From: Owenia fusiformis
Lineage: Eukaryota; Annelida; Polychaeta; Sabellida; Oweniidae
Length of the DNA: 64,000 nucleotides
Direction of reading: 5' to 3'
Assembly: GCA_903813345.2 (NCBI GenBank)
Contig: CAIIXF020000006.1
Span: 30,670,024-30,734,023 of the forward strand
Shown here: positions 25,501 through 28,500 of the stretch, in pieces
How positions within the stretch are numbered: position 1 is the first letter of the stretch
Layout: the number at the start of each line of letters is the position of its first letter
The notes under the pieces: generated by a model
Database searches by the model: none
What the model was told of the DNA's origin: nothing
What the model saw: the letters and a program-made list of their open reading frames with translations, nothing else
Program-made: the position numbers and the translations under genes

Positions 25501-28500
25501 GTTAGCTGTTAAAAGTGGAAATCTCTTTAACACACATGAAAAAATGAGAATAAACGAGATTTCAAAGCTATATGAAAACTCTTCTATTATCTGGATCATT
25601 AAAAAACAATTTGAAAATATAAAATAAAAAATGATTTGGAATCAGTCCAGGGTGTATATCTTAAAAGACATACTGGTACTCATTCCAAATTGGCTGATGA
25701 AAATGCACAGGATATATTTTGGAAATGTAAAGGAATATGTAAAGGACATAAAACAATTACTTACTGGAATGTGTTGTAGAGGTCTGGCTTACAATATCTG
25801 TAGGTCTAGTAGGAAGATTGGTTGTCCCAGGTGAATTCCTACAAAATATTCAACACTTTACACAAAATGGTCTAAAGTAAATAAGGAGAATCAATGTCTA
25901 TGTGTTTAAGAGGAACCACTAAATATTGAGATATTCAATACTTTTGTATTTATAATCATATACTCGTATAGTTCACTGGTAAGTTGTGCTTAATGACAAG
26001 TTAAAAAACAAAAAACAAGTGTGACTAAATTGAACTTTGTAATTTAAAAAGTTAATGAAAGACAGACAACAAAGAAAAACTTTACTAAAACTAAACATAA
26101 TGTGAAATCTTCCCATTATTATCTTTTTATTTCTCATATCACCCCTTATTGGGTATATAGAGTAGACAGATAGTAAAATGCATTGCAATTTGGAGAAAAG
26201 AATGCAAGAAAACATATTTCATCCAAAAGGTAATGCAATAATGTGTCAAGTCATGTTCAAATCATTACAATGAGTAAATGAGAAAGAGTAATGAAATATA
26301 ATTACTTCATTTGTAAATTAAATGTAAATGTGAACTTTTTAACCAACATAACGACTATACCCCAAATGAGTAAATATTTCCTAATTGATAAAACAATAAA
26401 CTCTACTATTCAGTAATAACAACCAATTACCTTATTTCCTCTACTTTGCCTGGGGGTTGATTTTGCTGTTTATTGCGCTCTAGGATATACAGTGTTGTTA
26501 TGGAAACCAAGCTGTAAAAGCAAAGCATGGTCTCTAGGAATAAGCCAACACTCTACAATAATTGAGACAAAGGGGTTTCATGGAGGGACTTATATTAACT
26601 TATCTAGGGTTTTTATCTAGCACCCAAAATTTGGTGTCTGCACATATTTGGGGTTTACTCCCTCACTACTGTAAGAAGCATTCACAACCGATCCACGAGT
26701 CTTTGGACCCCCATATTTACTCCCCTTGCCCCCCTTGATGGGGTAAGGGGTGTGGTCATAAGCAAGACTATCAATTCCATTTCAGTCACACATGAATTGG
26801 ATTAATATAACTGAATTTTAGGAATCTTAAATCACACCATCTGTGAGTAATGACCCTGGTAATTCGGGAGGAAGGGAGGGGGAGGATATGATACATAAAT
26901 TCTTGGTTGAGTTCCCAAACATGTATCTAAAATTAAAAGCTTAATCATTAAGTAATCTTATATATGTATTCAAGAATAACTGAACTTGAATATTGAAAGC
27001 CCATAAATGAAGATGTTGGTCCGTCATTGTTCACAATATAGATTTTCTTTTAAAATATTAAAGGCAGAATCTATAGGAGGGGTTGACAAAATTGCAAGCA
27101 ATATGTACAATTGATCTACCAATGTATCCCTTACAAGCTCAAATATGATATCTCCCAAAAGATCCACAATATGTTAATTATCAATTGGTGAAGTTATTTA
27201 GATTCAAAGTGCAAAAATGGGGGCAAAATGCATGTGTAATGTCTTCCAGATAATAAGAATGGTGACCATATTTATAGACAATTGAATGCGGGATGTAGAA
27301 ATATTTAGATCATGATGATTCTAATGATGGATACTACTTTTAGATTCTGCCTTTAAGTCTTTATAATTTTTCAATTTAACTGTCAGTTAAAGAAGGTCTA
27401 AATAAAAGTCCCCCAATCCAACAATATATCATTGCATGTAAAATATTAACAAATATGCATGTAGCAAATTTGTCATATTCTCTGAAGACAATGTCCATCC
27501 AACTTAGCTAAATATAACAAACCAAAGCAACAAATATACAAATAATATATTTATAATCTTGCATCAGTTTCCTATCACTCCCCCTAATAAACATAGAAGT
27601 TGGGAAAACAAGAACATGAAGGAGGAGCATTAATGCAGATATACACCAGTCTTTCAAGTCCCCCCCAAAAAGAACTGTAATTTTAACTGTACACTATTTC
27701 CAACATATAATAAATATTTTATCCTTGTTAACCCTACCTCAAGAAAAGTAGTAAGGGAGGAGGAAAAGATCAGATGCAAGACTATTTATATTTATAGTAA
27801 ATAACTATAACACAATCCTGGTATTGATATCACAAACAGATCAAGCTGATATGCTTGAGAGAAGCCTACCATGGCACAATCTCACTAAAGTTTAGGTCAA
27901 GTGGTGGGGCACGGTTTTTAGGAGGTGTTGCCGTTCTCAACTGTTCTTGTTGTATCAGGAGTATCGTCATGACGCCCAATAGACTGTAAACAATCTCATG
28001 ATTAAGTCAAGAGGGAGAAATGGTTTCTCCTTTAGGAGATTATGGAATTTGTTGGTGTCATCAGCAAGAAAAAAATACATGAAAACATAGAAAGCAAATT
28101 GTGCAGAGGTTTGTTCAAGGGGTCCTCAGTGTACAAGTGCATCATGGGTACTACATTGTCATGGTGATCCAATCTGCATCCTCACCTTTCACCATGAAGT
28201 CGAGGTCTAAAAGGATGAGATGTATTGCGAAACTTTGGCTCATTTTGGAATTGAGATTTGTCATATTCCATAAGAACAATTGTAGTTATCATCACTACGC
28301 TATAAAAAAGTTTTATTTATACAATGAAAACAAATAAGTTTTTGATAAATACAGGGTGGGTCAAAAAGATCTACACTCAAATATATCCCAATACATCTTT
28401 TTAATAATACATAGAACTAGACATTAAGATTGCAAGCAGTCTTACAGAGGCCCCTCTAGGCATTTTTGACAACTTGAATGTGAGCCAAAGGTCAATCTCA

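Follow-up and report, generated by a model that had tools for sequence, protein, structure and literature searches.

In Drosophila, the alternative transmembrane exons 17.1 and 17.2 of Dscam1 send the protein to dendrites or axons (PMC2566808). In MYRF, a conserved tethered transcription factor, release from the membrane is the decision point. The autoprotease residues of human MYRF are S578, D579 and K583 (PMC3742443), and in C. elegans cleavage is described as restrained by the cytosolic-side juxtamembrane region and the PAN-1 tail (preprint PMC12803276). We analysed 64,000 nucleotides (nt) of the annelid Owenia fusiformis (contig CAIIXF020000006.1, forward strand, 30,670,024-30,734,023), below called the window, to which all coordinates refer. 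The MYRF gene in this window appears to contain three tandem-duplicated homologous exons, alpha, beta and gamma, which would be spliced as alternatives, one per messenger RNA, each completing the transmembrane helix. Judging from the sequence, we assign this reading a probability of about 0.78.

The gene model runs along the minus strand between 37878 and 22507 and comprises 22 exons, with the three alternatives counted in. A preliminary description of this DNA had reported two apparently mutually exclusive exons, forms A and B. The features of the region are as follows.

28921..29133, minus strand: constitutive upstream exon; cytosolic Ser/Thr-rich linker and first half of the transmembrane helix; ends after two codon bases (TG)
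28186..28299, minus strand: exon alpha (28299-28186); 114 nt, phase 2 to 2; predicted half-helix and 27 lumenal residues, sequon NTS
27870..27983, minus strand: exon beta (27983-27870, form A); 114 nt, phase 2 to 2; predicted half-helix and 27 lumenal residues, sequon NFS; weakest acceptor of the three
26431..26511, minus strand: exon gamma (26511-26431, form B); 81 nt, phase 2 to 2; predicted half-helix and 16 lumenal residues, without a sequon in the exon
25765..25838, minus strand: constitutive downstream exon (lumenal); in-frame junction with each of alpha, beta and gamma

The introns between these exons are, in order, 621, 202, 1358 and 592 nt long, the alpha-beta intron being that of 202 nt and the beta-gamma intron that of 1358 nt. 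Alpha and beta are equal in length, and together with gamma they form a tandem of homologous exons of equal phase. Alpha is bordered by the acceptor tttttatag and the donor gtgagg. At the first junction a Cys codon is rebuilt by each of the three exons; the second junction, before NSPG, yields Arg with alpha or gamma and Trp with beta. For beta and gamma, the coordinates, phases and hydrophobic half-helices given in the preliminary description were all confirmed, as were the 11-residue difference in length and the sequon NFS in the longer exon, beta; both exons have AG/GT borders on the minus strand. The earlier observation is thus right, but the set of two was incomplete, as alpha, a third exon of the same kind, lies upstream of both. 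No fourth exon was found, either in the alternative-exon intron, where the next score in the intron scan is 18 versus 30 for beta, or in the whole window with gamma as the query, where the next score is 14.

The homology of the three exons was assessed with the first 14 residues of gamma as the query, against which each open frame that follows an AG acceptor in the matching phase was scored. The frames ranked were 4617 others from the window and 160 kilobases (kb) of the same genome. Alpha ranks first (score 32) and beta second (21), the best remaining frame scoring 20. The same search was applied to 20 MYRF exons (19 constitutive ones and gamma), and a neighbour scoring above every null frame was observed for gamma only. 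One could still suppose that alpha, beta or both are chance open frames between an AG and a GT. Hydrophobic stretches are in fact not unusual in open frames that follow an AG, as in 154 of the 1259 in the window the mean Kyte-Doolittle value over ten residues is 1.3 or more. However, among complete exon-like AG..GT units none of the 1645 found across the 160 kb reaches 21, whereas within the alternative-exon intron this score is reached by two of the 14 other exon-like acceptors, namely alpha and beta. Under a looser requirement of 14 codons the score of beta is reached by 2 of 6837 frames and that of alpha by none. Among the 144 null frames that equal or exceed gamma in hydrophobicity, the maximum score is 13, and none reaches 21. 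An origin of these exons by chance is thus extremely improbable.

The pattern of codon positions points to age and to selection on the protein. Over ten aligned codons, the numbers of identical first, second and third positions are 4, 8 and 3 for alpha and gamma, 2, 7 and 2 for beta and gamma, and 5, 8 and 2 for alpha and beta. Third positions are identical at the random level (hydrophobic null frames average 2.6), and second positions are kept. Since any hydrophobic sequence tends to have T at second positions, the comparison was made with the 144 hydrophobic null frames. These have on average 4.5 identical second positions; eight are reached by 1 of the 144 frames, and seven by 5. The DNA of alpha and gamma is identical at 21 of 42 nt, the average of other frames being 11.4, and 10 of 6837 frames reach 21. 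Because the third codon positions are randomised and the second ones preserved, alpha, beta and gamma are, on sequence grounds, old tandem duplicates retained as coding sequence.

The predicted membrane segment gives a reason for using one exon at a time. Membrane propensity was scored by a simple 19-residue sum on the Hessa scale. The single-exon forms have sums of -4.5 (alpha), -5.0 (beta) and -3.1 (gamma), which corresponds to a predicted membrane segment. If all three exons are skipped, the sum is +3.6 and the predicted segment is lost. If two or three exons are joined, a hydrophobic decamer is stranded, with sums of +5.3 to +12.2. The Wimley-White octanol sum separates the forms less clearly (-10.3 for the skipped form versus -11.5 to -12.8). 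By these predictions, exactly one exon is needed for one clean helix. The preliminary claim that double inclusion keeps the frame and strands a hydrophobic segment of about ten residues was upheld by the frame check and by the Hessa sums. Exclusive choice, proposed there as the simplest reading, is backed by the homology, by the analysis of skipping and double inclusion, and by the weak acceptors described below, although the choice is among three exons and not two.

A number of observations, gathered here, weigh against this reading. Firstly, the DNA of beta and gamma is identical at only 15 of 42 nt, a level reached by 1014 of 6837 frames. Since the raw DNA identity of beta is ordinary, its kinship is visible in the protein and the exon structure and not in raw DNA. 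Secondly, with alpha as the query, a plus-strand frame at 18253 (score 27) is ahead of beta (20), and with beta as the query, a frame in locus L005 (24) is ahead of gamma (21), while a frame in L007 ties with alpha (20). As chance frames compete under the alpha and beta queries, the membership of beta rests on the gamma query together with its phase, borders and position. Thirdly, the acceptor of beta is poor. With a matrix built from the 19 constitutive MYRF acceptors, alpha scores 0.6, beta -2.5 and gamma 0.5, below all 19 constitutive sites (1.3 to 12.8 in a leave-one-out analysis), and the score of beta is reached by 36% of the AG dinucleotides found in 224 kb. The weakness of the acceptors was noticed after the fact and is equally readable against beta. 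PMC6071210 mentions that mutually exclusive exons can have weaker splice sites. The donors are ordinary (8.5 for alpha, 5.0 for beta, 7.0 for gamma; 2.9 to 11.3 for 18 constitutive donors). Fourthly, the codon usage scores of alpha and beta are reached by 16% and 21%, respectively, of 3251 random open frames. The scores of both exons also fall inside the range that the 19 constitutive exons give in a leave-one-out analysis.

The weak acceptors, that of beta most of all, and the resemblance of the codon usage to random open frames would fit another explanation, by which alpha and beta are leftovers of tandem duplication that have dropped out of splicing, and gamma alone is used. However, the gamma acceptor is no better than that of alpha. 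Moreover, the copies are old, as seen from the randomised third positions, and yet they have kept the frame, the AG and GT borders, the phase and the identity of second positions. Open stretches of 38 codons are uncommon in the MYRF introns, at 765 of 9892 overlapping windows, and two such exons are required. In neutral relics of such age the joint survival of frame, phase, borders and hydrophobicity would not be expected. We consider this explanation unlikely.

The exclusivity itself may also be questioned. The exon lengths are multiples of three and the reading frame is intact in every combination, so the frame does not remove double inclusion, and decay of frameshifted transcripts cannot enforce the exclusive choice. 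The introns of 202 and 1358 nt are no steric bar to joining the exons, and steric blocking is therefore disfavoured as well. Incompatibility of U2 and U12 sites is disfavoured because all sites are GT-AG, with no U12-type donors seen by eye. Exclusivity would thus need some active mechanism. For these reasons alpha, beta and gamma could be cassette exons that may be included together and are not strictly exclusive. On the other hand, co-inclusion would leave the stranded decamer in the lumen, and according to PMC6071210, tandem exons that are homologous and share their phase are usually exclusive. Simple cassette use seems less probable still than the loss of alpha and beta from splicing. Intact borders, matching phase, homology and protein-type constraint are evident from the sequence, and mutually exclusive use of the three exons in vivo would be the best reading.

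One possible way of enforcement is competing RNA structure of the docking and selector type. A candidate was observed in the first intron:

28431..28456, minus strand: candidate RNA docking site; can pair with approximately 28162-28116 and approximately 26730-26696, in both internal introns

The summed pairing energy of this site (28456-28431) is -49.4, which is reached by none of 40 shuffles. However, genomic blocks of equal size attain it in 11 of 90 cases, although none of seven MYRF intron blocks does. For a possible docking site in the last intron the energy is matched by 30 of 40 shuffles. The site in the first intron is therefore listed as a candidate only, and enforcement by RNA structure is not claimed.

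The intron upstream of alpha holds a perfect palindrome at 28627-28662 (17 base pairs, 2-nt centre). A role as a splicing element was considered and rejected, as the palindrome core has 13 occurrences in the genome with at most two mismatches and is thus a dispersed repeat. One half of this palindrome recurs at 34722-34736. Two further repeats were observed in the window. The stretch 31422-31834, inside a MYRF intron, resembles a tandem repeat and has a repeated translation of a 12-residue type on the minus strand, as seen in the list of open reading frames and in the sequence. The stretches 40530-40690 and 21480-21610 are alike around 'gtggaacacctct...ggtaccaa...gtgttc(c/t)acttaa/g' and, by eye, are apparently a dispersed inverted repeat.

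By the domain content of its predicted protein, the gene is a MYRF orthologue. The spliced protein carries PF05224 (NDT80_PhoG; E 1.4e-28, 100.8 bits versus the cut-off of 27), PF13884 (Peptidase_S74; E 1.4e-14), PF13887 (MYRF_ICA; E 4.9e-21) and, after the transmembrane segment, PF13888 (MRF_C2; E 5e-19). It also matches the structure of the human MYRF ICA domain, 7dc3 (E 2.3e-66), and contains the motif SDQRVK with a Ser-to-Lys spacing of five, as in human MYRF. MYRF is apparently single-copy. A search of the genome with the Peptidase_S74 profile gave at least one match, the one listed lying inside the MYRF gene. When the protein sequence of the anchor region was used as a query, the MYRF locus alone was matched, and there gamma was returned but not alpha or beta. 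A weak MRF_C2 match at C11:20716705-20716860 is below the cut-off (19 bits, E 0.36). The C2 domain of MYRF itself, which is split across several exons, is absent from the listing of the exon-by-exon profile search. Homotrimerisation and self-cleavage are further features of the MYRF family.

Alternative splicing probably allows the animal to exchange the membrane anchor together with the adjoining lumenal residues. Each exon would supply that half of the single transmembrane helix which faces the lumen, and the first 16 to 27 lumenal residues, whereas the DNA-binding domain, the ICA autoprotease, the coiled coil and the C2 domain would remain constant. Such a switch might alter what the membrane and lumenal partners meet, that is, the helix surface, the flanking charge and the stalk length. 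The residues flanking the helix are EYDK in alpha, QQEQ in beta and ERNK in gamma, and the stalk after the half-helix has 27, 27 and 16 residues, respectively. Counted from the end of the helix, the sequon is 15 residues away in alpha and 21 in beta, so that alpha and beta, but not gamma, might carry a membrane-proximal N-glycan. Two sequons among three such stretches are unsurprising by themselves, and three further sequons downstream are common to all forms.

Effects of the swap on glycosylation, trafficking, trimerisation or release are plausible. The juxtamembrane region that restrains cleavage in C. elegans is not the part exchanged by alpha, beta and gamma. A point against the anchor acting directly in cleavage is that a human MYRF ending ahead of its transmembrane domain is described as still processed and transcriptionally active, while it is less competent in promoting oligodendrocyte maturation (PMC3742443, PMC8099431). 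Since the truncated protein is still processed, the earlier proposal that the swap tunes release is weakened; since it stays both processed and active, an effect on trafficking or partner binding is favoured over one on catalysis. Altered exit from the endoplasmic reticulum (ER) or altered partner binding might in turn influence the place and time of cleavage by the ICA trimer and so the release of the transcription factor. These effects of the switch are less firmly indicated than exclusive use itself. In the most far-reaching version, the three anchor isoforms would be a tissue- or stage-specific switch, in which a glycan and a longer stalk (alpha, beta) or neither (gamma) decide the partner, the ER exit and the timing of release. 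We regard this version as speculative and rather doubtful. If true, splicing would control the timing of a self-cleaving transcription factor.

No report of exon choice for the MYRF membrane anchor was found among the matches listed in the open-access literature, judged mostly from the listings. Open-access matches for mutually exclusive exons together with MYRF are unrelated by title and abstract, and there were none for such exons together with membrane-bound transcription factors. The main text of a human survey (PMC9741552) has no occurrence of MYRF or of 'transcription factor'.

The present gene shares with human MYRF and C. elegans MYRF-1 the domain order, the autoprotease and the single transmembrane segment between ICA and C2, and differs from them in its three anchor alternatives. 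If these are used, three natural interchangeable modules of half-helix and stalk, with all else constant, would be a ready-made experiment on the role of the MYRF anchor. The exons resemble tandem-duplicated mutually exclusive exons as described in PMC6071210 and PMC9741552, being adjoining, homologous, similar in length and of the same phase. By descent the gene belongs to MYRF, with a cluster of tandem-duplicated exons; by analogy it would work like Dscam1 exon 17, where alternative exons vary the transmembrane domain and the rest of the chain is constant. However, Dscam1 is an adhesion receptor, a protein unrelated to MYRF, with two such exons versus three, and the MYRF exons exchange only the lumenal half of the helix and the stalk. 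If the three exons are indeed used, a membrane-bound transcription factor would join the proteins with exchangeable membrane anchors.
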